Assembly: GCA_002748755.1 (NCBI GenBank)
Contig: PDTD01000011.1
Span: 55,274 to 119,273, forward strand
DNA from: Desulfobulbus propionicus
GTDB taxonomy: Bacteria > Desulfobacterota > Desulfobulbia > Desulfobulbales > Desulfobulbaceae
Length of the DNA: 64,000 nt
Direction of reading: 5' to 3'
Under the pieces are notes generated by a model. It was given only the letters and a program-made list of their open reading frames with translations, had not been told where the DNA came from and made no database searches. Position 1 is the stretch's first letter; each line of letters starts with the position of its first letter. This document shows, piece by piece, positions 3,032 through 63,506 of the stretch. A program made the position numbers and the translations under genes.

Positions 3032-3240
3032 CCCGAATTTCTCAAGAATATTTTGGGTGTATTGAAAAATATAATATAAAAACAGTTAGTTAAAAATAAT
3101 TGATTCGTGGCCAATGACTCCAGCATGTGCACCCAAGAACCGCATAATCGGCACCATCTTCGGCGGTGTTGTAACAGCACATTGGGGGGCTTCCGTGCCC
3201 GGCTAAGAATCTTTGCATTTGGCATTGCGCATCAGTGTTG
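3032..3240 (+). repeat. Dispersed repeat copy 1 (left-arm variant II)
   Basis: This copy occupies much of the 387-base gap between flgF and the SwrB-like gene. It begins CCCGAATTTCTCAAGAA and contains the family-wide block CACCATCTTCGGCGGTGTTG; its right end is eroded (GGCATTGCGCATCAG). The AT-rich left arm (ATTGAAAAATATAATATAAA) is shared with the copies at 25082 and 63291 but not with the others. No coding potential is seen. The rest of the gap holds the flgF ribosome binding site and nothing else I recognise. Confidence 0.75.
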
Positions 3241-3281
3241 GCCTTTCTGCCGCCTGGTTCTCCTGAAACGGACGGCCCTGC

Positions 3282-3698
3282 TCAAGCGCTGCGGCCTGAT
3301 TGAGCCATGTTTTTCAGAGTGATCAACTGGGTTACTTCGGTGATGGAAATATCCAGGATCCCGGCTATCTCTTCCGGCTGCATCCCCTGGGAAACCAATT
3401 TTGCCAGGATTGTATATTTTTCAGGCGTCCGGGTATGCGCGTGACACTGGGTGCGTATCCTGGGGATCTGTAATCCGGTGGTTAGGGAGGCTTTTTCCAA
3501 AGAGTGCTCAAAGGTTTTTTTGGGTGCAATGGCCTCTTCGGTCTCCAGCGCGCTGTCTATCTTTGTCAGTATTCTCTTGAGACGCTTGGCTGCAGGGTGT
3601 TGATGTCGGGTACGTACTTTGTGTGCCAGAAGAAAGGTGATCAGACTGAGGCAAAAACCCAATAGTGTGCTGCAAAGGACAAGTATCAAATCATACAT
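3282..3698 (-). CDS. Small membrane-anchored HTH-like protein, SwrB/DUF2802-like
   Basis: This 138-residue protein has one N-terminal transmembrane segment (LILVLCSTLLGFCLSLITFL, residues 4-23), a basic linker and a C-terminal helix-turn-helix-like stretch EKYTILAKLVSQGMQPEEIA followed by GILDISITEVTQL. The layout (membrane anchor plus HTH-like tail, directly downstream of the flagellar sigma factor) matches SwrB/YlxL of Bacillus and the DUF2802/DUF6115-type proteins of proteobacterial flagellar clusters. SwrB promotes flagellar export apparatus assembly; a similar role here is inference. It lies 111 bases after fliA. The family call is moderate; the function is not established by the sequence. 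Confidence 0.6.
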   Translation of the reverse strand: MYDLILVLCSTLLGFCLSLITFLLAHKVRTRHQHPAAKRLKRILTKIDSALETEEAIAPKKTFEHSLEKASLTTGLQIPRIRTQCHAHTRTPEKYTILAKLVSQGMQPEEIAGILDISITEVTQLITLKNMAQSGRSA

Positions 3699-3809
3699 CT
3701 GAACACCCTCCCCAGGCTTTTTTCATCAAGGTCGGATTCTCACCGCTCACGGTCATCACATTCATCTGTTTTTTCTCAAATGAGACCCAATGGTCATGGA
3801 AAATTCGGT

Positions 3810-4541
3810 CTACTCGTACATCTCTGCATTAATCAACTTGACCCGGAGTTTCAACAGGGCTTGGCTATGCAGTTGGGACACCCGCCCTTCGGATACACTG
3901 AGTACTTCGGCGATCTCCTTTTGGGTCAGTTCTTCGTAATAGTACAGTGCTATGACCACTCGCTCTTTTTCAGAGAGTTCCTCCAACACTTCGGCAAGGA
4001 TATAGGTCATTTCCTGCTCTTCGATCAGCTCTGTGGGCGTCGGACCGTTGACATCTTCCAGGGAGTCGAGAAAGCTTCTCCCCTCTTCGCTGTGATCTAA
4101 GGTCTCGTGCAGACTGACGCATCCCAGGTGCGACACCTCTGTCAGGAGGCGTCTGTATTCGTCAAGGCTGAGGTGCATAGCCTCGGCCATCTCAATTTCT
4201 TCAGGCGAACGTCCAAGTTGCCTTTCCAGGTTGAGCATCGTTTGGGTGAGGTTGTTTTGCTTGTCGCGCATGGTGCGTGAAAACCAGTCCATTTTTCGCA
4301 TTTCATCAAAAATCGCCCCGCGCATACGATACTCGGCAAAGGTTTTGAACTGGACACCTTTTGCACTGTCAAACCTGTTTGCTGCATCAATGAGCCCCAT
4401 CATGGCCGCACTGGTCATGTCGTCCCTGGTCATAAATGAGGGGACCTGTGGAACCATTCGCTGAACAAGGAGATCGACCAGGGGAAGATGGTCCTGGATC
4501 AGTTGTGAACGATTATCGAGTGGTGGTACAGGTGGATACAT
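3810..4541 (-). CDS. fliA: Flagellar sigma factor sigma-28 (FliA)
   Basis: FliA directs RNA polymerase to late flagellar and chemotaxis promoters. The 243-residue protein has region 2 (DDMTSAAMMGLIDAANRFD, FKTFAEYRMRGAIFDEMRKM, then DWFSR), region 3 and region 4 with a HTH (LTQKEIAEVLSVSEGRVSQL). DWFSR and GAIFDEMR are typical of sigma-28. The gene is 21 bases downstream of flhG, in the flhF-flhG-fliA order common in polar flagellates. Its activity would normally be held back by FlgM, which is not in this window but could lie beyond flgH. Confidence 0.95.
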   Translation of the reverse strand: MYPPVPPLDNRSQLIQDHLPLVDLLVQRMVPQVPSFMTRDDMTSAAMMGLIDAANRFDSAKGVQFKTFAEYRMRGAIFDEMRKMDWFSRTMRDKQNNLTQTMLNLERQLGRSPEEIEMAEAMHLSLDEYRRLLTEVSHLGCVSLHETLDHSEEGRSFLDSLEDVNGPTPTELIEEQEMTYILAEVLEELSEKERVVIALYYYEELTQKEIAEVLSVSEGRVSQLHSQALLKLRVKLINAEMYE

Positions 4542-4562
4542 GGCCTGAGTACTCTAGGGAGA

Positions 4563-5468
4563 CTATTTGTTACCGAAATCAAGAAGCCTTTTCCAAAAAA
4601 ACTGAACGGAACCCTTAGGTTCAAGAGACTGGGGTTCTTGGATCATGGTTCGCGCCAGGGCTGCAAATGCGGCGCTTGTTTTTGACTCCGGGTACAGCTC
4701 AACAAGTACCTGTTGTTTGCGTATGGAGTCGATCATCAGTTTGTCGCGCGGAATGGAACCAATATAATCAATGGAGATATCAAGGTACCTGTTCGCGACC
4801 ATGGTCAGTTTTCGATAGACGTCAAGTGCCTCTTCCTCGTTACGAATAAAGTTGACTATTAGGTTGAAGTGTTTTTCGTGATATTGATTGGAAAGCAGTT
4901 TCATGAGCGCATACGCATCTGTAATGGCCGTAGGCTCAGGCGATGTGACCACCAGTATTTCTTGCGCCGCTGTATTGAAATAGGTGACATTTTCAGAAAT
5001 TCCAGCCTCGGTGTCGATGAGTACGAAATCAAAGTCATTGTGCATTTTGTCCAGAGCTTCCAGCAGACGCATCTTTTCATGGGTGTCCAGGCGGGTGAAG
5101 CGCTGCACACCTGAACCCGCAGGCAGAATTTTTATGCCTTGGGGACCCTCGACAAGAATGGCTCTTAGGTCCTGCTCGTCTGAGAAAAAATGGTTCAGGT
5201 TGTATTGGGGCGCAAGTCCGAATACAACGTCGATATTGGCCAAACCAAGGTCTGCGTCAAGGATGAGAACACGCTTACCCATCCCGGCAAGCAGAACGGC
5301 CGTATTGGCCACGACAGCGGTTTTACCCACGCCGCCTTTGCCGCTGGTGACGGCAAAAACACGTGTTGCCGAAAAGGAGTGTTCCAGCGTGCCTGTTTCC
5401 GCTTCCTTGGGATTCATGGTTCGCAAGGTATCAGCTTGGTCTGAAATACGATTTGCATAATCAGCCAT
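4563..5468 (-). CDS. flhG: Flagellar number regulator FlhG (FleN), MinD-like ATPase
   Basis: FlhG is a ParA/MinD-type ATPase that limits flagellar number and stimulates the GTPase of FlhF. The 301-residue protein carries the deviant Walker A motif KGGVGKT at residues 44-50 and a second signature LILDADLGLANID at about 68-80. The N-terminal DQADTLR (residues 10-16) matches the activator helix that FlhG uses to contact FlhF. The C-terminal region ends with a basic segment that could serve as the membrane-targeting helix (VQFFWKRLLDFGNK). It overlaps flhF by 8 bases and precedes fliA by 21, so the three are translationally linked. Confidence 0.93.
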   Translation of the reverse strand: MADYANRISDQADTLRTMNPKEAETGTLEHSFSATRVFAVTSGKGGVGKTAVVANTAVLLAGMGKRVLILDADLGLANIDVVFGLAPQYNLNHFFSDEQDLRAILVEGPQGIKILPAGSGVQRFTRLDTHEKMRLLEALDKMHNDFDFVLIDTEAGISENVTYFNTAAQEILVVTSPEPTAITDAYALMKLLSNQYHEKHFNLIVNFIRNEEEALDVYRKLTMVANRYLDISIDYIGSIPRDKLMIDSIRKQQVLVELYPESKTSAAFAALARTMIQEPQSLEPKGSVQFFWKRLLDFGNK

Positions 5469-6717
5469 TCTTTTGGGTCCTGTGATCGTTCATGATATAG
5501 TCCGCCATGACCTTTGGGTTCGGGGAGATGATGTCTTCCGGGACCCTCTGGCCGTTGGTGAGAAAAGAAATAGGGGTGTTGTTATGAATATGGGTATTGA
5601 GAATGACCCCTAAACGTTCGCATTCATCGACCTTGCTGAAAATAAAGGTCTTAATGGGCAATATACTGAATTGTTTTATAATGTCCTGTATCTCGCGCTC
5701 TCTGGTTGTCGCTGAAAGTACGAGGTGGTGTTGGATATTGAACCTGGGACGCATGAAGGCTGCCATATCTTCGAGTTCCTGTCTGTTGCTGGGGCTGCGC
5801 CCAGCGGTATCAATCAGAATCAGATCATAGTGCTCGAACCTGGCCAGGGCCTGTTCCAGTTCTTCCGGTTTCAGGACCACTGCTACCGGCAGCCCCATGA
5901 TTTCACCATAGACCTTAAGCTGTTCAACGGCTGCTATCCGAAAGGTATCAATGGTGATAAGAGCGATCTTGCCGCCAAACCTGCACAGGTAGTTTGCCGC
6001 CAGCTTGGCAATGGTGGTGGTCTTGCCAACCCCGGTGGGACCAATCAGGCTGAGGCGCTGCTGGCAGGGGGCCTTCTGTTGCAGTACTTTTTCGGTGGTC
6101 ATCATATGGGCGATGGCGGCCCCTGCAAGAGATCGTATTGGAGAAGGTGATGTGCGGCTGGTATAGCCCAAACTCTCCCGGGCGTACCATGCTGCTCTCC
6201 CCGCTGCCGCTAGGTTGACGTCATAGGTCTGCAGCAACTGGATGATTTGGTCGTCTTCCTGACCAGTATCTGAGGAGAGAGGTTCTCGATAGGGAGGGGG
6301 GACCGGCTGCCGGTCCGGCTGGAGTTCAGCGATCTGCCTGCTCAGGGTTTTGATAATACCGCGAAGTTCTCCAAGCTCGTCCTGTACACCTTTGTCAAGT
6401 GGTGCCGTGGACGTGGAATCCGAGGTGATGAGGGACTCATCTTCTTTCCAGAGTTTTTCATAGCTAAGAGACTCTTTGGGCACCGTAGGCCGAGGAGCAT
6501 ATTGTTGCGCGCTCCTTCGTTTGTTTTTCGGTGGTTTACTTGGTTTCCAGGACGTATCAATGGCTGCTGTAATTTCCAGGACAGGCTTGCTCATGAGGCC
6601 GAGTTTCCCTTGCCGAATGGTCTTGGTGGAAAGAATCAGGGCATCGGGACCAAAGGTCTCCTTTACTTTTTTCAGGCCTGATGCCATGTCTGGTGCTTCG
6701 AAAACCCTAACTTGCAT
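5461..6717 (-). CDS. flhF: Flagellar placement GTPase FlhF (SRP family)
   Basis: FlhF is an SRP-type GTPase that marks the site of flagellar assembly, usually the pole. The 418-residue protein has a basic N-terminal domain starting MQVRVFEAPDMASGLKKV, a Pro/Ser-rich linker, and the NG domain: P-loop GPTGVGKTTTIAKLAANYL (about residues 228-246), TFRIAAVEQLKVYGEI, DTAGRSP and the base-binding FSKVDECERLG. It overlaps flhA at its start by 11 bases and flhG at its end by 8 bases. The FlhF-FlhG pair predicts polar or otherwise number-controlled flagella; this is family knowledge, not visible directly. Confidence 0.94.
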   Translation of the reverse strand: MQVRVFEAPDMASGLKKVKETFGPDALILSTKTIRQGKLGLMSKPVLEITAAIDTSWKPSKPPKNKRRSAQQYAPRPTVPKESLSYEKLWKEDESLITSDSTSTAPLDKGVQDELGELRGIIKTLSRQIAELQPDRQPVPPPYREPLSSDTGQEDDQIIQLLQTYDVNLAAAGRAAWYARESLGYTSRTSPSPIRSLAGAAIAHMMTTEKVLQQKAPCQQRLSLIGPTGVGKTTTIAKLAANYLCRFGGKIALITIDTFRIAAVEQLKVYGEIMGLPVAVVLKPEELEQALARFEHYDLILIDTAGRSPSNRQELEDMAAFMRPRFNIQHHLVLSATTREREIQDIIKQFSILPIKTFIFSKVDECERLGVILNTHIHNNTPISFLTNGQRVPEDIISPNPKVMADYIMNDHRTQKNG

Positions 6718-8812: not shown

Positions 8813-8814
8813 GG

Positions 8815-9882: not shown

Positions 9883-9995
9883 GGGCACCTGGGGGTTGAG
9901 TTAGCCTGATGATCGTGTCCAGTTGAACAAAGAGGCCTTGTCCCTCTCTGTTGGATGCAAATGTATGCCCACCCTTCATGCAAATCACGCACCTG

Positions 9996-10217
9996 CCCCG
10001 ATATTCTCATGAACATTGGGTTTTTTTTGAGAAAAAACTCATAAAAATAGATGGATATATTATTCACCAGCCGGCTCAGATTTCGACAAAGTGCCCACCC
10101 AGGCCCAGCCCCGGCGGTCTCACCTTCGGCCGTGTTTTGGCAACACCTATACCCAGGTATACTGAGGTACCACAGACTATCGAACCTGGCACCGCCAGGG
10201 CTGATGAGAAACCCGGA
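9996..10217 (+). repeat. Dispersed repeat copy 2, flush with the fliR stop codon
   Basis: A full-length 222-bp copy between fliR and flhB. Left end CCCCGATATTCTCATGAAC, right end GCTGATGAGAAACCCGGA; the next three bases (10218-10220, CTA) are the fliR stop TAG on the minus strand. It carries the shared internal blocks CAGCCCCGGCGGTCTCACC, TTTTGGCAACACCTATACCC and GAACCTGGCACCGCC. It has no reading frame that resembles a protein. It must be transcribed if fliR and flhB share a transcript. Confidence 0.9.
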
Positions 10218-11003
10218 CTATTGATCAGGGGCGAGCAGAGTGAAAAAATCCAGGAAGGTGTATCCTAACGTGTCGAATTCTTGACGCAAGATGAGCAGGG
10301 TGGCGTTGAGTGTTAAGCCAATAACCAGGAAACTAATACCGATGTTTATCGGAAAAGAAAGCATGAAGACGTTGAGCTGGGGAAAAACTCTTGCAAGAAT
10401 ACCCAGGACCATATTTGAGATCAGCAGGAGCACCAGAACCGGAGCGCTGAATTTGACGCCCAGGATAAACATGTGGCTCGTCAGTTCCATGAGTCTGGGA
10501 ACGGCATTGCCACTGAAATTCAAATAACCGGGCGGTAGGAGTTGGTAGGACTCAAGAATGGTATGTATATACAGGTGATGCATGTCCAGGGCAAGGAAAA
10601 TCAGGATAGAAAAGACATTGATAAACTGGCTCATGAGGGAAAGCTGTTGGGTTGTCTGGGGATCGAAAATATTGGCTGCCGCAAAACCCATCTGGTATCC
10701 GATCACAGTGCCACCGAAATTTACTCCTGTGAAAATAAGCTGGGTTATCAGTCCCAGCAGGGAGCCCAGCAAGATTTCATTGAATAGCAGGATCCCCATT
10801 TCCGGGACTGAGGTGATAACCGGCGTGTAGGGTGACATAAGCGGGAATAGCAGCATGGCCGTGCCGAACCCGAGGCCTATTTTAAATCGCAGGGCAACCC
10901 GACTTCCTGCAAAGACTGGTATGGCGGCAATAAGGCCCAGTACACGGGAGAGGCAGAAGAGAAAATTCTGGAACTGTTCCAGGGGAACGAGCTGGAGGTT
11001 CAT
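10218..11003 (-). CDS. fliR: Flagellar export gate protein FliR
   Basis: FliR is a core subunit of the FliPQR export channel. The 261-residue protein is strongly hydrophobic with several membrane segments: VLGLIAAIPVFAGSRVALRF near the N-terminus, the conserved EILLGSLLGLITQLIF and GFAAANIFDP segments in the middle, and a C-terminal VFMLSFPINIGISFLVIGL. Length is typical. Both its flanks are dispersed-repeat copies: one ends exactly at its stop codon and the other begins 15 bases upstream of its ATG. So fliR is a gene enclosed between two repeats in an operon. Confidence 0.95.
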   Translation of the reverse strand: MNLQLVPLEQFQNFLFCLSRVLGLIAAIPVFAGSRVALRFKIGLGFGTAMLLFPLMSPYTPVITSVPEMGILLFNEILLGSLLGLITQLIFTGVNFGGTVIGYQMGFAAANIFDPQTTQQLSLMSQFINVFSILIFLALDMHHLYIHTILESYQLLPPGYLNFSGNAVPRLMELTSHMFILGVKFSAPVLVLLLISNMVLGILARVFPQLNVFMLSFPINIGISFLVIGLTLNATLLILRQEFDTLGYTFLDFFTLLAPDQ

Positions 11004-11018
11004 GGAAAGCCAAGTTAG

Positions 11019-11238
11019 CCCGGATTTCTCATCAACTCAGGCGGTGCCAGGTATGGTCGCTTGTGGTACCTCATTTTACAGGGGTATATGTGTGAGTAAA
11101 CTACCGCCGAAGATGGGACCGCCTGGGCTGAGCGTTGGTGAACAGTTTGTCGGAATGTAAGCCGACTCATGGATATCATATCTACTTGTTTCTATATATT
11201 TTTCTCAAGTAAAACCCTCTGCTCATGAGCAATTTGGG
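11019..11238 (-). repeat. Dispersed repeat copy 3, flush with the fliQ stop codon
   Basis: A full-length 220-bp copy in reverse orientation that fills the gap between fliQ and fliR. It begins CCCGGATTTCTCATCAACTC, continues AGGCGGTGCCAGG, contains GAAGATGGGACCGCCTGGGC, and ends GCTCATGAGCAATTTGGG at 11238. The next bases TTA (11239-11241) are the fliQ stop TAA on the minus strand. The left end is preceded by TTAG, so a TA dinucleotide borders both ends. Confidence 0.9.
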
Positions 11239-11511
11239 TTAGTGCCCGATTGTCGCTATATCACTGATTATGCCGAAGGTAAAGGTGATGAGCAGATTCA
11301 TAATCCAGGGCCCGAAAATAAGCATGGTAATAAAGACAGCGACAATTTTTGGAATAAAGGTCATGGTCTGCTCATTGATTTGGGTTGCGGCCTGGAAGAT
11401 AGATATGATCAGTCCAACCACTAAGGCTGCAAGGAGCATGGGAGCTGATGTCAGGAGGATGGTTTCCACTGCTTTTCTGCCGATATTCACCACCGTTTCA
11501 GGTGTCAGCAT
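11239..11511 (-). CDS. fliQ: Flagellar export gate protein FliQ
   Basis: FliQ is the small two-helix subunit of the FliPQR channel. The 90-residue protein starts MLTPETVVNIGRKAVETILL, followed by two transmembrane hairpins: PMLLAALVVGLIISIFQAAT and IVAVFITMLIFGPWIMNLL. The motif QAATQINEQTMTFIPKI is the FliQ signature. Length is exactly that of the family. It follows fliP by 99 bases; its stop codon abuts a repeat copy. Confidence 0.96.
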   Translation of the reverse strand: MLTPETVVNIGRKAVETILLTSAPMLLAALVVGLIISIFQAATQINEQTMTFIPKIVAVFITMLIFGPWIMNLLITFTFGIISDIATIGH

Positions 11512-11610
11512 AGTCCTTTCTCCTTAACCGATTGCAGTGTCGGCTGTGCGTGTTTTTTTCTCTTTGTACTGTCTTTCTGTTCATTTGCTTGCCTTCCTTG
11601 GGGCGATGTT

Positions 11611-12728: not shown

Positions 12729-12732
12729 GGCT

Positions 12733-16396: not shown

Positions 16397-16639
16397 ATGA
16401 TGCTCCTTGAGCGTTGTACTGCTGCCTTTTCCCAGGGATGATTTCCCTGTTCCCGGTCGTGCAAGGCCTTGGAATCATACTGACGATGCACATCAGAATA
16501 CCTGAAAAATGGTCTAAAAACAATAATGCAATTATGGTGCCAATGGAAACAAAATGCAAGCTGGAAAGAGAGGATGGAGGGACGTTTTTTCAGGGAGATA
16601 GAAAAAACAGCGCTGATTGTTACAGCCTGGATGGTTTAT
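16397..16639. other. flgE-motA spacer, non-repeat part
   Basis: The motA-proximal half of the 382-base gap between flgE and motA. It contains the motA ribosome binding site (AAGGAG just upstream of the ATG at 16396) but no recognisable gene. It may hold a motAB promoter, but no clear consensus is visible. The rest of the gap is the short repeat copy at 16640-16753. Confidence 0.4.
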
Positions 16640-16753
16640 CCCGGAATGCTCATGAACCTTTTGTCTCTTTTGAGAAAACATACAGAAAAACAAAAGAGGC
16701 TGACTGCCGTGAGCAGGCTTGACATGCGACAAAATGGTTGTGAGAATTCCGGG
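16640..16753 (+). repeat. Dispersed repeat copy 4 (short form)
   Basis: A 114-bp copy that has both terminal inverted repeats (CCCGGAATGCTCATGAAC and TGAGAATTCCGGG) and the left-arm hairpin segment TTGTCTCTTTTGAGAAAACA but lacks the central GGCGGT...GGCACCGCC part. It is an internally deleted form, as expected for MITE-like elements. It lies between flgE and motA. Confidence 0.8.
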
Positions 16754-18905: not shown

Positions 18906-20639
18906 TTATGCTTTCACACTCAGAGTCTGATTCGAGGTCCACAGGGTCTCTTCTTCTTCCTCATGCAGGCTGAATACAGCCTGCCTGGAGGGTGAACGGT
19001 ATTCTTTCCCCAATTGATGACGGCCTTCATTGTGCTGGAAATGACTGCCATCGTATTGGCTATTGGCGGCAATGGTTATTTCGACCTCATGGAGAAAAAG
19101 TCCCTGCTGCTCCAGGGCTTCTCTCAGTCTGGGCAGATGTTTGTCCAGCGCCTCCTGTGCCTGGGGCGTCTGGGTGACGATGTGCGCACGGATAGTATCT
19201 TGATCCACCTTGATTTCCATACGCAGTGCACCCAGTTCTCTGGGATGCAGGCTCAAGGTAACAGAACCGCTTTCCAGGTGCCTGTTGGTGGTGAAAAAAT
19301 GGATGACCTGGTCCATGGCTGCATTTTCCGGGACAGTCGCTCCGGAAGGAAGACGCATCATGGCCGCTGTGTCCACCGGTACCCGCGTGGAGGCAAACGA
19401 GGATGCAGCGGATGATTCAAAGCTTAATAGCGTATATGGCGTGTTGTCGCTGAAAGGAGAATCTGCTTTGGTCAAGGGTTCTCCTGTGGCAGGTTTTCCC
19501 GTCTCTTTCTGGTTTGCCGTGTCGTTGGCAAGCTGTCCTTCCGAATCGGCCAGGACAGTTTTGGTTGGCTCATTGGGTAGGTTTGAATGGATGTATTTGC
19601 TGGTGGTGTCATGGTAGCGACCGCTTGGATCGGTAGTGGGCAGCGGGCCAGAGCCGATATGCTGGGTGGCGACTTCCTCCACCACAGAGCTTTGATACAC
19701 CGTAATGACCTGTCCCTCTTCCGTTTGGGTCACCATACCAGGGGTGGGGGAAATCTGACCATTGATGAGGTCGTTGCCGTTGGACCCGATGTTGCTCTTG
19801 AATCCTGCGAGGTGCAGTACTTTGGCCGCCCGAGCATGTTGGGGAGCAAGGTCGGAAAAGGTGGCTGACCACTGCATCATGGAATCCTGTCGGAAGGCTT
19901 CATCGGTTTGACTGTCTTGGGGAGCCGAGGTGGCAGCGCCAGAGAAGAACTTGGCGTTGCTCAGGACCTGCTGGAGCTGGGTTGCGGTCAGGGTGGGCTG
20001 CTGTGCTTTGATTTGGGTAACAGTTCCCTGGAGGTTCTGCTGTTTTGCTTCAGTCAACGCTTGGTGCTGCAGGGTTTCCGTGCTGGACCCAATCGCAGAT
20101 TGGGCTGTCTTTTGCTGGTGCTGATGGTCGCTGGATACTGTGGTTTGGGTGGATTTGAAAAGGGGATTGTCGTCAGTATCGTTTTCGGTCAGGATATCTT
20201 GGAGTATCTGTATGGGCGCTGTCTCAGCCTTGGGCAGAGGGTAGGCGGCTGCCTGTACAGAGGTTAGTACAACTGTTGTATCATTTGTTGCTGCCCATGC
20301 TGTCAGAGCGGGCCCGGCGGTCAAGGGAGAAGAGATGTTTGGCTGGGATGCCGTCCCTGGTCCTGCAGCAGTTGTTGACGGATCGAAACTGCTGGATTCT
20401 TCTGCAGTTTCCTGGCTGTCGGTTTCCGGGTTGACAGCGTTCGGGTTGACAGCGTTCGGGTTGACAGCGTTCGGGTTGGCAGCGTTCGGGTTGTTGGATT
20501 GTTTGGTTGTCTGGGCGGCAAGGTGGGAGGCAAAGGAACGCTCACTGATGCCCCCATCTTGCATGCTTTCAACGGGAGCCGTACCCACCGCACCGGTCGG
20601 GGCTATTGGATCACAAGCTGAAAAGGCAAACGTCTGCAT
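18906..20639 (-). CDS. fliK: Flagellar hook-length control protein FliK
   Basis: FliK measures hook length and triggers the FlhB switch. The 577-residue protein has a long, low-complexity N-terminal two-thirds rich in Gln, Thr, Ser and Ala and a conserved C-terminal domain (about residues 445-530): ESGSVTLSLHPRELGALRME, IRAHIVTQTPQAQEALDKHL and LREALEQQGLFLHEVEITIA. The N-terminal ruler contains a tandem NPNAV repeat (see separate feature). Long variable FliK rulers are normal. It is 9 bases after the motE-like gene and 13 before flgD. Confidence 0.9.
   Translation of the reverse strand: MQTFAFSACDPIAPTGAVGTAPVESMQDGGISERSFASHLAAQTTKQSNNPNAANPNAVNPNAVNPNAVNPETDSQETAEESSSFDPSTTAAGPGTASQPNISSPLTAGPALTAWAATNDTTVVLTSVQAAAYPLPKAETAPIQILQDILTENDTDDNPLFKSTQTTVSSDHQHQQKTAQSAIGSSTETLQHQALTEAKQQNLQGTVTQIKAQQPTLTATQLQQVLSNAKFFSGAATSAPQDSQTDEAFRQDSMMQWSATFSDLAPQHARAAKVLHLAGFKSNIGSNGNDLINGQISPTPGMVTQTEEGQVITVYQSSVVEEVATQHIGSGPLPTTDPSGRYHDTTSKYIHSNLPNEPTKTVLADSEGQLANDTANQKETGKPATGEPLTKADSPFSDNTPYTLLSFESSAASSFASTRVPVDTAAMMRLPSGATVPENAAMDQVIHFFTTNRHLESGSVTLSLHPRELGALRMEIKVDQDTIRAHIVTQTPQAQEALDKHLPRLREALEQQGLFLHEVEITIAANSQYDGSHFQHNEGRHQLGKEYRSPSRQAVFSLHEEEEETLWTSNQTLSVKA
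20427..20492 (-). repeat. 15-bp tandem repeat inside fliK (NPNAV units)
   Basis: About 4.4 copies of a 15-bp unit read on the plus strand as CGGGTTGACAGCGTT (first copy with GGCAGCG). On the coding strand they give NPNAA followed by three NPNAV units and NPE at residues 50-71 of FliK. The copies are almost identical at DNA level, which suggests recent expansion by slippage. Each unit gain or loss keeps the frame. Confidence 0.9.
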
Positions 20640-21644: not shown

Positions 21645-21766
21645 CCCGAATTTTTCATCAGGGCTGACCTTTGGTGCACATTTTCCTGAAATGTGCACAT
21701 GAACAGTACATATATCTGTTTTTGCCTGTTTTTTCAATGAGACAGAATATCCATGAGAAAGTCAGA
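21645..21766 (-). repeat. Dispersed repeat copy 5 (degenerate), flush with the fliI stop codon
   Basis: A remnant of about 122 bp between fliI and fliJ. It begins CCCGAATTTTTCATCA, and its right part reads ATATCTGTTTTTGCCTG then TTTTTTCAATGAGACAGAAT and CCATGAGAAAGTCAGA, matching the end of reverse-orientation copies. The next bases TTA (21767-21769) are the fliI stop TAA on the minus strand. The centre is replaced by a perfect palindrome (next feature). Confidence 0.75.
21674..21698. promoter_or_regulatory. Perfect 10-bp inverted repeat in the fliI-fliJ gap
   Basis: GTGCACATTT, loop TCCTG, AAATGTGCAC: a perfect 10-bp stem with a 5-base loop. No uridine run follows on either strand, so it is not a standard terminator. 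It could be an RNA processing site, an operator or simply part of a degraded repeat. Other repeat copies do not have it. Confidence 0.6.
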
Positions 21767-23173
21767 TTAGTGATTGGATCTTTTCTTCCTGCGTTCAATG
21801 GAGCGTCTGCCCGGTTTTCGCCTGTCCGTGCCTGTCCGGTCGCTGACCAGTTCACCCAGTGCCTGAATGGAATCATCCAGGGAACAGGCCTCATCCATGC
21901 CTTGATTGAGAAACGCATTTATGGCATCAATTCGCTTGATGGCATAATCGATCTGGGGGTTGCTTCCGGCGGCATAGGCGCCAATATTGATCAGGTCCTC
22001 CGACTCGTTGTAAACAGCCATGACCCCACGTGTACGACCCGCCAGTTCAAGATGCCGGGGACTGACAATGTCTCGCATCACGCGGCTGGTGGACATCATA
22101 ACATCAATGGCCGGGTAGTGGTTCTTGGCAGCCAGTGACCGGGAAAGAACAATGTGCCCGTCCAGTATGGAACGAACGGAATCAGCGACCGGTTCTGTCA
22201 GGTCGTCCCCGTCCACCAGAACCGTGTAGAGGCCGGTGATAGAGCCCTGGCTTTTGAATTTTCCCGCTCGTTCAAGCAGTTTTGGCAGGGTGGCGAAGAC
22301 AGAGGGCGTATAGCCTTTGGTGGTGGGAGGTTCACCAATGGCCAGGCCTATCTCTCGCATGGCCATGGCGAAACGGGTGACCGAATCCATCATCAAGAGG
22401 ACATTCTGCTGCTGGGCGCAGAAGTACTCTGCGATTGCCGTTGCCAGGTAGGCTCCGCGCATCCGTAACAGGGGCGGCTGGTCAGATGTGACGGCAATGA
22501 TTACAGAACGGGACAGTCCCTCGCTGCCCAGATCTCGCTCGATGAACTCGCGGACTTCGCGTCCACGTTCACCGATCAGGGCGATGACATTGATGTCGGT
22601 CTTGGCATACTTTGCCATCATACCAAGGAGCACACTCTTTCCTACCCCGGATCCTGCCATGATGCCCATACGCTGACCTATCCCGCAGGTGATCATGCCG
22701 TTAATCGCCCGGACACCGAGGTCAAGAGGCGTTTCTATGGTGTCTCGGAGCATGGGGCCGGGGGGAGAGGCATACAGGGGGTGCTGGTGTTGCAGGTGCA
22801 GGGGAGGACCGTCATCTACCGGTTCACCCATTCCATCTATGACCCGGCCTAAAAGATTGTGACCAACATGGATCGAAGCATGCTGGGATTTTACTCGGAT
22901 CAGTGACCCCGGCCCCAGCCCTCGAATTTCACCTAAAGGCATGAACTGTGCCTGGTTGTTGGTATAACCAACTATTTCAGCGTTGATGGGTTCTCCCCCA
23001 TGAAGGGGGGAAATTTCACAGAGTGATCCAATGGAAGAAATATCGCAGGTCCCTTCAATGACCAAGCCGACGATCCGGGTTACTTTACCATAGACGTCGA
23101 GGGGAGAAAAATTATCCAGGATGGTGGGGTTGGGTAAAACCATGTCGGCGTGGCTCTCCTGTTGTTGATGCAT
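21767..23173 (-). CDS. fliI: Flagellum-specific ATP synthase FliI
   Basis: FliI is the ATPase of the export apparatus. The 468-residue protein has an F1-beta-like fold with P-loop GIMAGSGVGKSVLLGMM (about residues 169-185), VIALIGERGREVREFIERDL, LLMMDSVTRFAMAMREIGLA and the PPTTKGYTPSVFATLPKLLE segment. The C-terminus has an extra basic tail (RKPGRRSIERRKKRSNH). The first ATG (23173) lacks a good ribosome binding site; an alternative at 23143 (MVLPNPTILD) has AGGAG 12 bases upstream. It is 12 bases after fliH, and its stop abuts a repeat remnant. Confidence 0.95.
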   Translation of the reverse strand: MHQQQESHADMVLPNPTILDNFSPLDVYGKVTRIVGLVIEGTCDISSIGSLCEISPLHGGEPINAEIVGYTNNQAQFMPLGEIRGLGPGSLIRVKSQHASIHVGHNLLGRVIDGMGEPVDDGPPLHLQHQHPLYASPPGPMLRDTIETPLDLGVRAINGMITCGIGQRMGIMAGSGVGKSVLLGMMAKYAKTDINVIALIGERGREVREFIERDLGSEGLSRSVIIAVTSDQPPLLRMRGAYLATAIAEYFCAQQQNVLLMMDSVTRFAMAMREIGLAIGEPPTTKGYTPSVFATLPKLLERAGKFKSQGSITGLYTVLVDGDDLTEPVADSVRSILDGHIVLSRSLAAKNHYPAIDVMMSTSRVMRDIVSPRHLELAGRTRGVMAVYNESEDLINIGAYAAGSNPQIDYAIKRIDAINAFLNQGMDEACSLDDSIQALGELVSDRTGTDRRKPGRRSIERRKKRSNH

Positions 23174-25081: not shown

Positions 25082-25302
25082 ACTCGAATTTTTCAAGATT
25101 CTTTTGGGGAAATTGAAAAATATAGCATAAAAATATTTTGTTGGAAAAGAAATGGTGTAGAGACAGTCTCTCCAATATGTTCCCTTAAGATCAGTGCATC
25201 CAGTACCATCTTCGGCAGCATTTTGGCAACACAGCCTCTCAAGGATAATGAGGTCCCAAAACTACCGAACCAGGCGCCGCCTGAGCTGATGAGAAATCCG
25301 GA
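25082..25302 (+). repeat. Dispersed repeat copy 6, flush with the fliF stop codon (variant II)
   Basis: A 221-bp copy between fliF and fliG. Left end CTCGAATTTTTCAAG, internal blocks ACCATCTTCGGCAGCATTTT and GAACCAGGCGCCGCC, right end GATGAGAAATCCGGA at 25302. The following TTA (25303-25305) is the fliF stop TAA on the minus strand. The left arm has the AT-rich variant (AATTGAAAAATATAGCATAA) shared with the copies at 3032 and 63291. Confidence 0.9.
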
Positions 25303-30645: not shown

Positions 30646-30865
30646 TCCGGGTTTTTCATCCGATCAGACGCTTCCAGATTGGGTAGGTATTGGTTTCTCA
30701 TTCTACCTGGGTAAATGTGTTGCCAAAATACGGCCGAAGATGGGAGCCGATGGGCTGTGCTTAGGTGTATCTTTTGTCGAAATATGAGCCTACTTGTAAA
30801 CATCACGGCCACTTGTTTTTGGGTTATTTTTTCAAATAAGACAACATGTTCCTGAGGCGTCCGGG
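30646..30865 (-). repeat. Dispersed repeat copy 7, upstream of the flagellar operon
   Basis: A 220-bp copy in reverse orientation directly upstream of the TPR gene. It begins TCCGGGTTTTTCATCC, contains CTACCTGGGTAAATGTGTTG followed by CCAAAATACGGCCGAAGATG, and ends TTCCTGAGGCGTCCGGG. It lies between the operon's first gene and any upstream promoter, so the mRNA leader may include it. Confidence 0.85.
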
Positions 30866-31476
30866 CCAAAGGAGCTTTCCTGCTGCTGGAAAGGATAAGG
30901 TGCATGGCTCTCTTTAAAAAAACGTTTGATCTTTTTCCCGCATTGCTCATGCCTGTGGTGCTTTGGGAGCTGCTCAGGTCACCCACCGCTGTGCTCTGAT
31001 TGGCGAAAATTTTTATGCACAACAATGCTGGTGCGAGAAGGGTTCGAGAGAGATGCTTTTGCTTTGCATTCAAAGAGTTTTTTGTTTTCGTTGATGACAA
31101 AAAAATGTCACAGGATCTGATTTTGTCACCGTCTGCCCGCAGAAGAGGAGAGTGGTTTAGGGGTACCTGCCTGAACCTTCTGGCTTTTAGGTCGGAGATA
31201 AAAGATGTCAGCTTGAGAATTATTTGAAAAACAGCCTTTGTTTTCTCTATAATAAAATATCTCTGAAACCGTTACGGGTTCAGGAGAGTCCCAAAAAAAA
31301 AGAACAGACCGGAAAAATTATATTTTAGAGAAGATAATTTGCTTTTCTGGATGTTGAGTTGCTATGATACAACTCATTAAGTAAGGGGAGTCAGGTTGTT
31401 GGTATGCGCCTGCGCACAGTAAAGAAGATGACATGCATCACACTTATAACACCAGACCCGTTGGGAGGTATGAAGG
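30866..31476. other. Divergent regulatory region between the flagellar operon and cheY
   Basis: This 611-base region separates the leftward flagellar operon from the rightward cheY cluster. A frame on the minus strand (30612-31100) has no recognisable product and spans the repeat, so I do not call a gene. It should hold the flagellar operon promoter, but I did not find a convincing sigma-54 (GGCAC-N5-TTGC) or sigma-28 site. A sigma-70-like promoter pointing to cheY is listed separately. The region 31262-31290 also holds an imperfect hairpin (CTGAAACC ... GGGTTCAG) followed by a run of nine A. Confidence 0.4.
31224..31253 (+). promoter_or_regulatory. Sigma-70-type promoter candidate for the cheY-cheX cluster
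   Basis: TTGAAA at 31224-31229, an 18-base spacer, and a perfect TATAAT at 31248-31253. It points toward cheY, whose ATG lies about 215 bases downstream, so the transcript would have a long leader. Consensus match is good, but a match of this kind can occur by chance in an AT-rich spacer. Confidence 0.5.
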
Positions 31477-34959: not shown

Positions 34960-35108
34960 GTCTCCCCTTCTGGATTCTGCTCAACCGCCTTGTACATCCT
35001 GCGTTCCACCTTTTCACAGAGCAGCGGCTTGCCAATGCAGTCATGCAGCCGACAAGGCTGGTGACGGCATGAGCCGACAGGAGAGGACTTTGTTTAGGTG
35101 CTTGTCAG

Positions 35109-35217
35109 CCCGGATTTCTCATGAACAGTTTGTATCATTTGAGAGAAAATCTGGAAAAACAGATGGATGTGATGTGCCCTCCGAACCTGGCCCCACCTGA
35201 GCTAATGAGAAATCCGC
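35109..35217 (+). repeat. Dispersed repeat copy 8 (internally deleted)
   Basis: A 109-bp copy with both ends intact: CCCGGATTTCTCATGAAC at the left and GAGCTAATGAGAAATCCG at the right. The left arm (GTATCATTTGAGAGAAAATC ... GATGGATGTGATGTG) joins directly to CCGAACCTGGCCCCACC, so about 110 central bases are missing. Located between the convergent 610-residue protein gene and the sigma-54 activator gene. Confidence 0.85.
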
Positions 35218-37780: not shown

Positions 37781-37985
37781 GCCGGATTTCTCATGAACAT
37801 GTATCCAGGCGAACCCAAATGTCTTCTGAAGCATGCAATGCAAGCCCTTAACCGGAACCTACTGCCTTTGTGTAAACAATTTCACCCCAATGTGCAGCAG
37901 CGCCCTGCACTGGCAGGCCAATCTTCGGCAGTATTATGACCGTCGACTGTTTTCCTGAACCTCAGGCCATGCGAATTGAGCTTCT
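37781..37985 (+). repeat. Dispersed repeat copy 9 (degenerate), flush with the nuclease stop codon
   Basis: Starts GCCGGATTTCTCATGAAC directly after the TAA (37778-37780) of the nuclease gene. The internal block CAATCTTCGGCAGTATTATG and the right part CTGAACCTCAGGCCATGC are recognisable, but the copy is diverged and the right end is unclear (approximate end). Confidence 0.65.
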
Positions 37986-46566: not shown

Positions 46567-46776
46567 TCACTCAGGCGGTGCCAGGTTCGGGAGTTTTTGG
46601 TGCCTCACTCTACTTGGGTATATGTGTTGCCCAAAGACGGCCGAAGATGCTACCGCCTGGGCCGATTTTTGGTGAGCAGTTTGTCGAGATTTAGGCTGAC
46701 TCACTAACACCACATGTATCTATCGTTTTTGCTCATTGTTTCTTAAATGAGACAAAATATTCATGAGGTATTCGGG
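46567..46776 (-). repeat. Dispersed repeat copy 11
   Basis: A 210-bp copy in reverse orientation. The left terminal repeat is lost: it starts CACTCAGGCGGTGCCAGG. It has CTACTTGGGTATATGTGTTG followed by CCCAAAGACGGCCGAAGATG, then GCAGTTTGTCGAGATTTAGG and TTTCTTAAATGAGACAAAAT, ending TTCATGAGGTATTCGGG. It lies between DUF4242 and the orphan AT-rich gene. Confidence 0.88.
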
Positions 46777-46820
46777 CTGAGCATCTCCAGGCCTTGGTTG
46801 CATCTGCTGTACGTTGCTCT

Positions 46821-53859: not shown

Positions 53860-54045
53860 TCATGGAGTAATAAAACTTGTCAAGGGATGCTGAAAAAATA
53901 CTGGTTATGCAGCGATCCTCTCCACAGCGCATCATGTTGGGAGGCGTCAGATTTGGTTGATTTTTCATAAGGCCGTATAGTTGAAACTCTGTGTCGTCAA
54001 GAGAGTACTGAATCTGGCACCACCAGTGCTGATGAACAACCCCAG
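53860..54045 (+). repeat. Dispersed repeat copy 10 (degenerate), flush with the marR stop codon
   Basis: A diverged copy. The left end is only weakly recognisable (AGTTTCTCATGGAG near 53865), but the right end reads GAATCTGGCACCACCAGTG followed by CTGATGAACAACCCCAG, and the next CTA (54046-54048) is the marR stop TAG on the minus strand. The remaining 53644-53859 region holds the PhnD gene's ribosome binding site and no recognised gene. Confidence 0.6.
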
Positions 54046-54528
54046 CTAATTGTGCTTTGGTACCGGCTTTATGCAGGCTTCCTGCTCTCCAAAATGAAGG
54101 GTCTCAATCAGTAGCTGCAAGCTGGTTTCAAGCGCCATAAGCTGGTGACCTGACAGTTTTAAGAGGGTGTTACTGAGCTGACTTTGAGGCGGGGAAGGAG
54201 TTTTTTTCAGGAGCGTTTTGCCCTGGCTGGTAATGTAGATATGGACAGAGCGCTGATCGGATGTGCTTCTGTCGCGGTAAATAAGGCCTTTTTTTTCAAG
54301 TTTATCCAGCATGTTGGAGCTTGTGGAACGATGAATGGATAGAGTTGCGGCCAGTTCAGAGACTTTTATACCTTCAGAGCAGGACACTTCATGCAGCATG
54401 CACAGTTGAGCGCTGCTCAGACCACATGTTTTCTCAACCCTCTTGGAATGGGCCTGGATAGCCCTGTACAACAGGCGTACCTGCTGTGTTATAGTTGTTA
54501 TTTGGATTTCCCGATTATCCACTCTCAC
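54046..54528 (-). CDS. MarR-family transcriptional regulator
   Basis: A 160-residue winged-helix regulator: VRLLYRAIQAHSKRVEKTCG, LSSAQLCMLHEVSCSEGIKV, SELAATLSIHRSTSSNMLDK, LEKKGLIYRDRSTSDQRSVH (the wing with the conserved D-x-R pair) and a C-terminal dimer helix. MarR proteins bind palindromes and often respond to small ligands. The proVWX operon, with palindromic operator-like sites upstream of proV, lies beyond the IS21 element on the same strand. A control role over proVWX, as for GbsR or EctR-type MarR proteins, is plausible but not shown. Confidence 0.9.
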   Translation of the reverse strand: MRVDNREIQITTITQQVRLLYRAIQAHSKRVEKTCGLSSAQLCMLHEVSCSEGIKVSELAATLSIHRSTSSNMLDKLEKKGLIYRDRSTSDQRSVHIYITSQGKTLLKKTPSPPQSQLSNTLLKLSGHQLMALETSLQLLIETLHFGEQEACIKPVPKHN

Positions 54529-55605: not shown

Positions 55606-55634
55606 TTGTAAGTACTCCTTTTCGTTTCAGTTGG

Positions 55635-58217: not shown

Positions 58218-58231
58218 AATAATTCTCCTGA

Positions 58232-59071: not shown

Positions 59072-59122
59072 TTCTTTACCCTTGGTAAAAGAGTTAATAA
59101 TGAGCAAGAATACCGCGCGCTG

Positions 59123-60340: not shown

Positions 60341-60451
60341 GAGGATGCTCGGTTTTTTTGGGGTTATAAGGGATATTGGCAAGGAAAAATATTGGTAGAG
60401 AGCCTTGAAGGGATATTGGAACAGATCATTTGTATCAACAACAAGGTAGCA

Positions 60452-60481
60452 CACAATACAGTATTGTGCAATATAGTATTG
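60452..60481. promoter_or_regulatory. Two adjacent palindromes upstream of proV (operator candidate)
   Basis: CACAATACAGTATTGTG (60452-60468), a perfect 8-bp inverted repeat around one base, followed directly by CAATATAGTATTG (60469-60481), a 5-bp palindrome that repeats the same half-site. Similar half-site (CAATA/TATTG) in both suggests a dimeric regulator bound at two sites. The MarR protein at 54046 is the nearest candidate. Confidence 0.6.
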
Positions 60482-60523
60482 TTGCTAATATTTTGAGAGA
60501 GTTCTTCTTGAGGTTGTTTTTGA

Positions 60524-60740
60524 CCCGAATTTTTCATGAACCTTTTGTCTCAGTTGAGAAAAAAGATACAAAACCAGATGGATGTGATATCTGTGAGCGG
60601 TTTCACATTTCGACAAACTGTTCACCATCGCTTCGCCCTCTGGTACCATCTTCGACACTGGGGTAACAGCACAGTGGGGGGCTATACTGGACTGCAAACC
60701 ATTTGAATCTGGCATCGCCTGAGTTGATGAGAAATCCCGG
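60524..60740 (+). repeat. Dispersed repeat copy 12
   Basis: A 217-bp copy upstream of the proV promoter region. Left end CCCGAATTTTTCATGAACC, TTGTCTCAGTTGAGAAAAAA, GATGGATGTGATATCTGTG, TTTCGACAAACTGTTCACC, GGTACCATCTTCGACACTGG, then GAATCTGGCATCGCCTGAG and right end TTGATGAGAAATCCCGG. One of the best-preserved copies. Confidence 0.92.
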
Positions 60741-60801
60741 CCAAAAGGGGAGGCTGGAGGAAGGCCTTATATGGGGAGGAAGGACCATGCATGATAAAGC
60801 C

Positions 60802-60816
60802 CCCCTGAACCAGGGG
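60802..60816 (-). terminator. Weak hairpin downstream of the ChoX-like pseudogene
   Basis: CAGGGG pairs with CCCCTG with a 3-base loop; on the minus strand it is followed by GGCTTTATC, only a short U-rich tail. It lies about 20 bases after the stop of the pseudogene. A weak terminator at best. Confidence 0.3.
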
Positions 60817-60837
60817 CATAACTAAGGGTCACTGTTT

Positions 60838-61635
60838 TTATGGACGTTTTGTTTGGGTTGCCATACATTTGGTAAATACCGGGAGTGCCGGTTCACCTGA
60901 TCTGGTCGTTACCCCCTCGAGCAAGTGCGTATAGATTTCTGGATGTGTTTTCAGCCAGGACAGGGCTGCCGTAGGGTGCGAGAGCTTTTATCGTTGTGCA
61001 TGACGCTCATGATGGCGTTCATCATTCTGATGGAAAAGGAGACATTTTTAAGAAACTGGACGACATTAGGCTGTTCTTCAGGGAGTGCTGGCCTGACATT
61101 GGTATACACTGTCACCACGCCATTGTTTTCATCAAAGGTTTTTTCTGTACTCCCGGTGAGAGAGGTCATATCAATCATATCGTTCACATGATGCGGTGCC
61201 CAAGCAAGAAAGACAATCCATTTTTTTGGCATACGTCCGGACCAGGGAGAGCTTGATTAATCCACTGGTTTCGATCATGTTAAACCCTTTCAGATTGAAA
61301 TCACTCTGATCAATCATGGTCTGGATAGTTTTATCCCCGTCATTGCCAGGCTCAATACTATACATTTTGCCCTCCAGTTTATCTTTAAGTTTGGCGATAT
61401 CCTAACAATCTTTCAACCCTGCTTGGGCAACATACGTTGGTACTGCAAGCGTGTATTGCGCTCCTGTCATATAGGGTGCCAGTTGAACCTTGTTACTTGC
61501 CTTGTATCCAAGAACAGCAAGCTCGGTTTTTATGGTTACTCCTGTCCAGGGGATGCTGGCAAAACGGATCTCTTTGTCTTCTGCTGAAGCGACGTTCGGG
61601 GTGGGAAAACAGTTAAAAAGAAAGAGTAGGGTCAA
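60838..61635 (-). pseudogene. ChoX/OpuAC-like choline or betaine binding protein, decayed
   Basis: A periplasmic binding protein related to ChoX. From a TTG at 61635: signal (TLLFLFNCFPTPNVASAED), EIRFASIPWTGVTIKTELAV, LGYKASNKVQL, then directly APYMTGAQYTLAVPTYVAQA. Compared with the family, about 50 residues between these parts are missing. An in-frame TAG follows LKDC, then DIAKLKDKLEGK and MYSIEPGNDGDKTIQTMIDQ. The frame shifts in a run of seven A near 61225 (KKWIVFLAWAPHHVN), and again near 60985 (TAALSWLKTHPEIY). So there is one deletion, one nonsense codon and two frameshifts. Located on the same strand as proVWX and upstream of it. Confidence 0.8.
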
Positions 61636-61779
61636 TATCCTGCTAAGACATTGCCTTGAGTTCTCTTGGGGGAAAATTGAATGATGTTTTTGCTGCCTGC
61701 TGGAGGGGCAGTCGTTATCTTTGGTAAGCAGTTCCTCCTTACAGCGGCCCATTTTTTGAGTGGTTATATGGTTGCCCGT

Positions 61780-61863
61780 ATGTGAGCCTACATACGGACA
61801 TCGCATCCACATGTTTTCGTGTGTTTTTTCTCAAATGAGACACAATGTTCATGAGAAATCCGT
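61780..61863 (-). repeat. Dispersed repeat copy 13 (one-sided fragment)
   Basis: Only the right part of a reverse-orientation copy remains: TATGTGAGCCTACATACGG, ATCGCATCCACATG, TTTTTTCTCAAATGAGACAC and TTCATGAGAAATCCGTCC. It lies upstream of the ChoX-like pseudogene. Confidence 0.8.
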
Positions 61864-61935
61864 CCTAACTATGGAAAAGAAATGGTTGTTGCCCCACTCC
61901 TTTTTGTGAGGTTGTTTGGAAGGCAAGACCCTTTT

Positions 61936-63237
61936 TTATCGCGGTAATGAGGCATCCATGTCCCGTATTTTTGCATGATATGCCGTCAGCATTTCCTGTT
62001 CAAACTGGTCGTTGGACAGATAGCTGTATCCAAAGACCGGCTCCCAGAGATCAATAGATTCCATGCACATATAAAAAAACACATCACTTTTCCATGATTG
62101 GGGAAAAGCGGCATAGACGGTGCGGAACAGCTCTTGCTTTATAGAGAAGGGGTAGCTGAATTTTCCGGCACACTCCTCCATAGGCATCTGGAGGATGGAA
62201 CTTTCCAGCATTCGGCTGCGGATGCGTTTCAGCACTGATTTGATAAAGGTCAGGGTGCCCAGGGACACCATAACGACTTCTTCCGGGGCAAAGGTGTTGA
62301 CCAAGGTTTTGACCAGTGCCAGGTAATCTTCCTGCCAGCCCTCATACCAGACAATAGGATGAAAATGAAAACCAACAGGAATCTTGCGATCAGCGAGTTT
62401 TCTCGCACTTTGTATGCGAATTTCGAGAGTTGCGGTACCTTTTTCCTCATGAGCGATAACCACAGGGGGATTGAGAGACCAGGTACATACCACATTCGGG
62501 GGCGGATGGTTTTCAAGGAAATAGTTGATCCGGCCGCTTTTGGATTTCATCTCTAGGATGACGTTGGGATGTTGCCGGGCGAATCGGCAAAGAGTGTCCA
62601 GCAGGCCAAACCGGTTTCCCCACATAAGTGAGTCCGATGACTGACCTGTCCCAATATGGTAGAGGCGGGAGGCATCAATATCGAGGGCAGCCAGACGTTC
62701 GCCCAGGTTCTCCACAAAACGGACCTCACCGCCATGGTAAAAGGATTGAATAGAGCAGTAGCTGCAATCGAAACCACACTGTTGTACGGCATCAAGGGTG
62801 CGCAGTTTACAACAGCGCGTTTTTTCTGAGACCACGGGACAAAGCCCCATAATATTACCCTGTTGCTGTACTTGAACAATCTGGCGACCTGCGGGCTTCC
62901 ATTCTCTCGTCAAAGCATACTGTCTTTCTGGATATTTTTTTATCCCGTTTTTCAGTGATTCATAGCCGCTTCGGAACTGTTCAAAAAGGACGGTTACCTC
63001 TTTCTTATTTGAAATATCTCTGAGATGTTCCGGTTGATAGAATTGTTCCAGGGAACCGGCATGCCAGCAGTAGAGATCCACACTGTATTCGGTGAGCATC
63101 CGCAGTTGCTGAAAGGTGAAGGGATGTTTTTCCGCCACCATACGAAGAAATTGCTGTGATTGTTGCGGCAGGCGGGCAAATACGGAGATTTTGGACAAGG
63201 TATTTTTCGTCATCAGGATTGCATCCTGCCTGTCCAT
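61936..63237 (-). CDS. Spore photoproduct lyase-like radical SAM protein
   Basis: The 433-residue protein has a radical SAM cluster motif in QQCGFDCSYCSIQSFYHGG (Cx3Cx2C), preceded by CPVVSEKTRCCKLRTLDAV, and followed by RLYHIGTGQSSDSLMWGNRF, GLLDTLCRFARQHPNVILEM, KSKSGRINYFLENHPPPNVV, TWSLNPPVVIAHEEKGTATL and LADRKIPVGFHFHPIVWYEG. This matches the SplB/spore photolyase family, which repairs UV-induced thymine dimers. A start at 63213 (MTKNTLSKISVF) has AGGA 10 bases upstream and is the alternative. Members occur in many non-sporulating deltaproteobacteria; the substrate there is unproven. Confidence 0.83.
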   Translation of the reverse strand: MDRQDAILMTKNTLSKISVFARLPQQSQQFLRMVAEKHPFTFQQLRMLTEYSVDLYCWHAGSLEQFYQPEHLRDISNKKEVTVLFEQFRSGYESLKNGIKKYPERQYALTREWKPAGRQIVQVQQQGNIMGLCPVVSEKTRCCKLRTLDAVQQCGFDCSYCSIQSFYHGGEVRFVENLGERLAALDIDASRLYHIGTGQSSDSLMWGNRFGLLDTLCRFARQHPNVILEMKSKSGRINYFLENHPPPNVVCTWSLNPPVVIAHEEKGTATLEIRIQSARKLADRKIPVGFHFHPIVWYEGWQEDYLALVKTLVNTFAPEEVVMVSLGTLTFIKSVLKRIRSRMLESSILQMPMEECAGKFSYPFSIKQELFRTVYAAFPQSWKSDVFFYMCMESIDLWEPVFGYSYLSNDQFEQEMLTAYHAKIRDMDASLPR

Positions 63238-63290
63238 GTAATTCGTATGTATCTTTTTGTTTTATCGTTCATTTCGTATACTTTTTGGGG

Positions 63291-63506
63291 CCTGGATTTG
63301 TGATGAATAGGGGGAAAAATTATAAATATAACAGAAAAATAATCAGTTAAAAATAAATGCTTTGCAGTAAGTTTTTCCAGATGTGGATCAAGGATCAGCC
63401 CCGGCGGCACACGTTTCGGCAGTTTTTTGTCAACCAAGAGAGGGGACGCTCATGCACTGCCAACACATTTGCATCTGACACTGCCTGAACTGATAAGAAA
63501 TCCGGG
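63291..63506 (+). repeat. Dispersed repeat copy 14 (variant II)
   Basis: A 216-bp copy. Left end CCTGGATTTGTGATGAA, AT-rich left arm ATTATAAATATAACAGAAAA, GTTAAAAATAAATGCTTTG, central GATCAGCCCCGGCGGCACAC, then GCATCTGACACTGCCTGAAC and right end TGATAAGAAATCCGGG. It lies between the photolyase-like gene and vapC. Confidence 0.88.

Follow-up and report, generated by a model that had tools for sequence, protein, structure and literature searches.

A dense family of miniature inverted-repeat elements in a Desulfobulbus genome, probably moved by an IS1380-family transposase

A repeat family with 4-bp target duplications

The 64,000-nucleotide window analysed here, part of contig PDTD01000011.1 of Desulfobulbus propionicus, holds 15 copies of a short non-coding repeat. 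With a probability of roughly 0.85, we consider it a non-autonomous miniature inverted-repeat transposable element (MITE) that is mobilised by an IS1380-family transposase acting in trans and whose fold aids the element rather than the host. In the mechanism that we propose, the transposase would recognise the 14-bp ends of the MITE (CCCGGATTTCTCAT) and insert it at 4-bp YTAR sites, which would be duplicated, while two hairpin arms between the ends would let one strand fold end to end as a three-way junction. Such a fold might give a protected folded strand, serve in transposase docking, or, as a folded transcript, render insertions in operons harmless. The case combines a dense MITE family with a likely IS1380 partner and empty sites in relatives, and it contrasts a fold kept between element lineages with its decay once copies have settled in a genome, which opens to test the old question of whether bacterial MITEs require their hairpins for movement or carry them as by-products.

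Copies were detected with an nhmmer profile built from copies in the window's genome (G000; 2,001,158 bases, approximately 91% complete); relatives in the same genus are denoted G001–G006. When a 449-kb sample of G000 (the window and stretches L035–L054) was scanned, 110 pieces were found, of which 59 were near full length, and the pieces merged into 107 elements. This density of approximately one element per 4.1 kb extrapolates to approximately 477 elements in G000; 4.0% of the sequence sampled (18,091 bases) consists of such pieces. The same profile gave no match in a Markov-shuffled copy of the sample, and the family is confirmed as real. An initial annotation, made from the letters of the window alone, had listed 14 positions in both orientations and called for a genome-wide count. 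Profile elements cover all 14 positions, those at 37781 and 53860 being badly decayed, and a further element absent from that list lies at 3742–3811; orientation is balanced, with 55 pieces on each strand, and the family extends far beyond the window. A sequence-model search of the whole genome returned at least 151 matches, a lower bound because 150 of the 1367 first-look candidates were scored.

A consensus built from 54 copies measures 221 bp between its CCCGG ends (the initial annotation had given 210–222 bp for full copies), and its 14-bp ends form the terminal inverted repeats CCCGGATTTCTCAT and ATGAGAAATCCGGG. The 4-bp flanks are mostly YTAR and are duplicated. Among 18 loci fetched from G002, both ends were recognised in 12 elements, and 11 of these had identical 4-bp flanks; the corresponding figures were 4 of 8 elements in G006 (nine fetched loci) and 7 of 16 rows in G004 (20 fetched loci), where five of the seven were YTAR. 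In G000, an exact duplication of 4 bp was found in 7 of 46 copies, and none was found for lengths of 2, 3, 5, 6, 7, or 8 bp. The target duplications in this genome are eroded, and its burst of the MITE is old. Our first guess, a TA duplication of the IS630 type, was rejected because whole tetranucleotides (CTAG, CTAA, and TTAG) vary together across both sides.

Genes in the 449-kb sample were placed with a home-made gene finder. None of the 110 pieces lay more than 50% inside a predicted gene and 89 touched no gene, so the earlier statement that all copies stand between genes holds on these predictions. The setting could be classified for 101 pieces: 60 were in gaps between genes of the same direction, 22 in convergent gaps, and 19 in divergent gaps.

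Orthologous sites were compared in the flagellar region, where two marker genes share one contig in six of the seven genus genomes (in G006, they lie on two contigs) and where an alignment showed collinearity in G001–G005. Between fliR (Pfam PF01311) and fliQ (PF01313), the window carries a full-length element of 225 bp (11017–11241, + strand, 192.5 bits) flanked by TTAG on both sides, whereas the gap is approximately 18–59 bp, and the site empty, in G001, G003, and G005; in G002, it is occupied by another insert, one end of which is similar. Furthermore, the insert at 35107 is missing in G001–G005, and those at 25083 and 21657 are missing in G001. At 9994, the gap in G001 is similar to that in the window (285 vs 335 bp), and likewise at 3742, so these two positions offer no clean empty site. 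The repeat is short and without coding capacity, and has terminal inverted repeats, a target duplication, and empty orthologous sites; together with an insertion sequence (IS) that has the same ends, these features support the MITE-like character that the initial annotation had proposed.

An IS1380-family element as the candidate mobiliser

The initial annotation had suggested a search for an IS with the same ends. In G118, a single-contig genome from another family, a complete IS1380 of 1711 bp is identical to the MITE at 14 of 14 positions at both ends and is flanked by CTAA/CTAA; against the NCBIfam model of the IS1380 transposase, the first of its reading frames scores E = 2.8e−66. A second complete IS1380 (L098, in G009) has CTAA on both sides and an intact transposase (NF033539, E = 2.2e−112). 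The CTAA/CTAA flanks of IS1380 copies L169 and L098 have the same duplication length as those of the MITE. In G000, the matches to the IS1380 transposase domain (PF13701) are fragments. An IS1380 N-terminus slightly below the Pfam cut-off stands at the edge of contig C26, preceded by the end TTAGCCTGCATTTCTCAT, and contig C9 carries at both of its edges an IS1380 end region 96% identical to that of C26. Relative to the 14-bp MITE end, the end on C9 has one mismatch and that on C26 has two. The initial annotation had seen no transposase linked to the repeats; this stands for the immediate surroundings of the window copies, among the window genes that were scanned, but IS1380 fragments and ends do occur elsewhere in the genome. 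From these sequence likenesses, an IS1380-family IS is the likely mobiliser of the MITE.

Several points weigh against this assignment. The transposase frame of the G118 copy is broken. The interior of L098 showed no convincing similarity to the MITE (best blast E = 0.58), so that the ends and the duplication are the sole link between the MITE and IS1380, which is 1.7 kb long and encodes a transposase. Neither G000 nor G002 yielded a complete IS1380 bearing these ends, the G000 copies end at contig edges, and no movement of the MITE has been observed. Two sets of candidates were also set aside: an element at G002 contig edges (L153 and L154), rejected as an IS1380 since, in the related loci L160 and L161, the gene next to that sequence is of the IS110 type, and the weak PF13701 matches L033 and L034, of which L033 resembles an rve-type integrase.

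The element is of an ordinary kind but apparently new as a family. As the initial annotation had supposed, no described family with this sequence emerged: Rfam matched nothing in the window except a tRNA, and the searches made in one open-access library showed no publication that links MITEs with IS1380 or with this group of bacteria. The sequences of enterobacterial repetitive intergenic consensus (ERIC) and Correia elements presumably differ from that of this MITE. The IS1380 family (NF033539; PF13701) shares with it the terminal 14 bp and the 4-bp duplication, as seen in G118. A review of prokaryotic MITEs never mentions IS1380 (PMC10969869). ERIC (up to 711 copies in Photorhabdus) and Correia (204 bp) are described there as short, high-copy elements like this MITE, and no IS1380 link is given for them (PMC10969869). 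The closest parallels in that text are QMITE1 (approximately 400 bp) and QMITE2 (approximately 190 bp) of Coxiella burnetii, which likewise have a high copy number and many partial copies; the QMITE2 transcript has a comparable predicted folding energy of approximately −113, and IS1111 has inserted into QMITE2 (PMC10969869). In contrast, QMITE2 has duplications of 7–9 bp and terminal repeats of 23–29 bp, as opposed to the 4 bp and the 14-bp IS1380-type ends found here (PMC10969869). Chunjie of Geobacter uraniireducens, a 235-bp MITE with 38 copies of 178–235 bp, 57 partial copies, and one copy inside an operon (PMC10969869), has fewer copies than this MITE, to which it is likened by description. 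For Anabaena MITEs, one study reports no evident similarity to the ends of ISs in the same genome (PMC3542288).

The fold between element lineages and within a genome

Folded as RNA, the consensus forms a three-way junction of −112.5 kcal/mol, in which a stem pairs the two ends and carries a right arm and a long left arm; the fold of the reverse strand is weaker (−89.9). Its conservation was assessed in two alignments. Alignment A2 contains 21 of 43 rows from six genomes, with three duplicates, ten copies with apex inserts, and nine further G004 copies omitted. In A2, 96.4% of pair cells were paired, and 21 of 64 pairs had changed on both sides; two-sided changes occupied 72 cells, compared with 20.4 after shuffling and 3–11 with slid partners. 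When the G004 and G002 consensus sequences were compared across 87 pairs, 58 were the same, 4 had changed on one side and 11 on both sides with pairing kept (2.7 expected for the latter), and 14 were broken.

Meanwhile, in alignment A1, which consists of 52 of the 59 near-full-length G000 copies and one G004 copy (n = 53), 74.8% of cells were paired, compared with 73.0% when partners were shuffled. RNAalifold found no common fold among the G000 copies, the mean z score was −2.9, and 31 of the 53 fell below −2. The copies in G000 lose the fold much as free decay predicts. The fold thus appears to matter while the element spreads, and its probable beneficiary is the mobile element, not the host: that it is kept by paired changes across lineages and decays in the old G000 copies suggests that it aids movement or survival of the element, rather than performing a function for the host at individual sites.

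Other features of the alignments count against this conclusion. In A1, the paired cells, the two-sided changes (130 vs 95.7), and the covariation score exceeded all 500 shuffles, although slid partners gave 126–157 two-sided-change cells, and we therefore read the excess as subfamily structure. The 21 sequences of A2 also served to predict the structure tested on them, which favours it over the slid versions, and kinship among the elements inflates the covariation counts.

The paired changes could also have arisen from self-templated correction inside the palindrome at replication, with no selection on the fold, a view that we regard as fairly unlikely. Consistent with it, and speaking against selection, a 17-bp apex segment occurs in either orientation, once in tandem, in three elements from G002 and G006 (L114, L121, and L133); these flipped and doubled segments suggest strand switching within the folded element. 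Such correction would be expected to yield Watson–Crick pairs and to treat both strands alike. In most counts, however, G.U pairs outnumbered A.C mismatches, to an extent that depended on how the pairs were chosen. The forward strand folded better in all 40 young copies and in the G000 consensus (mean −90 vs −71), as well as in 44 of 52 old copies. The first G.U counts used pairs predicted on the forward strand, a choice that favours G.U: the 21 elements then had 122 G.U against 11 A.C over all pairs and 55 against 11 over pairs with a Watson–Crick majority, and events in a set of 41 sequences (40 of the 43 rows and the G000 consensus) numbered 62 against 20. The old G000 copies, counted in the same way, gave 524 against 301 and, for the Watson–Crick majority, 325 against 289 (P = 0.16). 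With pairs predicted on both strands, the counts were 22 against 9 (P = 0.03) in the 21 elements and 15 against 13 in the set of 41, where events stood at 11 against 12. With pairs chosen by register, G.U exceeded A.C in the 21 elements (58 vs 10 cells; 20 vs 6 pairs, P = 0.009), a result that argues against self-templated correction; the set of 41 (53 vs 17 cells; 11 vs 5 pairs, P = 0.21), together with its both-strand events, weakens the argument. Since the both-strand event counts show no excess and the set of 41 is not significant, we offer strand-specific selection, or action as a single strand, as a suggestion only. The bolder proposal that the MITE spreads via a strand-specific fold, either as a transcript or as a single DNA strand with its ends brought together by the three-way junction, notwithstanding a presumed IS1380-family partner of the DDE (Asp-Asp-Glu) type, is doubtful; if true, it is one strand whose fold would be under selection as the element propagates.

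It is very improbable that the copies are structured non-coding sequences useful to the host, such as terminators or small RNAs, held in place by host selection. They are intergenic, numerous, and strongly folded in consensus, several lie within operons, and in same-direction gaps, elements run opposite to the genes more often than along them (37 vs 21, P = 0.048). However, orthologous sites are empty in relatives, and G001, G003, and G005 had no sequence-model match at E ≤ 1e−4 among 150 candidates scored in each, an absence qualified in G001 and G005 by nine matches and one match, respectively, to the end pattern described below. We rejected a host RNA because the pairs in the window's genome decay almost independently, as the A1 percentages and the RNAalifold result show.

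REPs (repetitive extragenic palindromic sequences) carry a GTAG foot, which the CTAG-like foot of this element resembles, and its high copy number, intergenic location, and palindromic structure would also suit a family of REPs or bacterial interspersed mosaic elements dispersed by a REP-associated tyrosine (Y1) transposase. This REP-like alternative, which the initial annotation had allowed, is hardly credible and found no support, because this element is a 221-bp unit that has terminal repeats and duplicates 4 bp of its target, as opposed to the palindromic unit of 20–40 bp in REPs (PMC3733652), because the Y1 transposase domain PF01797 had no match at E ≤ 1e−3 in the approximately 91% complete G000, and because there are IS1380 copies that share its ends.

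Copies in the window and spread among genomes

Besides the fliR/fliQ copy, the window has full-length MITEs between flhB and fliR (9994–10219, − strand, 187.7 bits), between fliG and fliF (25083–25302, −, 144.1 bits), and at 30647–30868 (+, 164.7 bits) and 60521–60741 (−, 156.9 bits). Two further copies are near full length: 46570–46778 (+, model positions 20–225, 172.1 bits) and 63290–63506 (−, 98.5 bits), the latter with a variant right arm. The copy at 3029–3227 (−, model 26–226, 95.2 bits) has a truncated or decayed left end. Fragments occur at 3742–3811 (+, the right part, model 146–225, 41.1 bits), 16637–16737 (−, model 126–226, 61.3 bits), 21657–21769 in the gap between fliJ and the flagellar ATPase gene (+, model 105–226, 66.0 bits), and 61772–61862 (+, model 131–221, 66.0 bits). 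An internal deletion has left the copy at 35107–35216 (−) in two pieces (model 157–225 and 5–41; 51.2 and 25.9 bits). The most decayed copies are those at 37781–37940 (−, 29.5 bits), of which the terminal repeat (at 37781) and part of the interior (37876–37940) are left, and at 53937–54046 (+, 37.5 and 31.9 bits). In the latter, the left arm is nearly palindromic and is hit by the profile on either strand (53937–54032, +; 53940–54046, −), and the outer part, from approximately 53855, is hardly recognisable. Apart from the MITE, a short tandem array with a 15-bp unit lies within a predicted gene at 20405–20493.

Of 257 genomes from the order, 47 contained an 18-bp end pattern (≤1 mismatch). There were 140 matches in G002, 96 in G000, 58 in G118, 55 in G004, 46 in G006, 9 in G001, 1 in G005, and 0 in G003, figures that are not MITE counts since the pattern also captures IS ends; the reversed pattern, used as a control, matched once over all rows. 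Full elements with the fold are present in G043, G113, and G118. A strict 38-base pattern searched in named GTDB contigs gave nine loci, all in the metagenome-assembled genome DOLJORAL78_47_9 (labelled Desulfobulbus propionicus), records near the window's genome possibly having been excluded.

The family is a further example of high copy number in a genome of small size, 2.0 Mb compared with 4.8–5.8 Mb in three congeners (G001–G003, scored as 100% complete). End-pattern matches per Mb were most numerous in G000 (2.0 Mb, 91% complete) and G004 (1.3 Mb, 68% complete), and the spread of the MITE may be linked to genome reduction; against such a link, G005 is also small (1.6 Mb, 68% complete) yet nearly free of the pattern.

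In G127, locus L175 (C1:1585900-1586500) contains at 207–434 a sequence with similar ends, another interior, and a similar predicted two-arm fold of −91.3 kcal/mol, and there may be several MITE families sharing one shape. Finally, an IS110-type end sits inside the MITE terminal repeat, beside its CTCAT/ATGAG part, in L159 (G004, contig C44; 1590–1660) and L160 (G118, contig C1; approximately 1490–1522). L160 carries an IS110-type gene (NF033542, E = 5.1e−64), L159 is a short remnant without the gene, and the same IS110-type sequence is found at the G002 contig edges L153 and L154, as if the MITE served as a landing site for IS110-type elements, by analogy with IS1111 in QMITE2.

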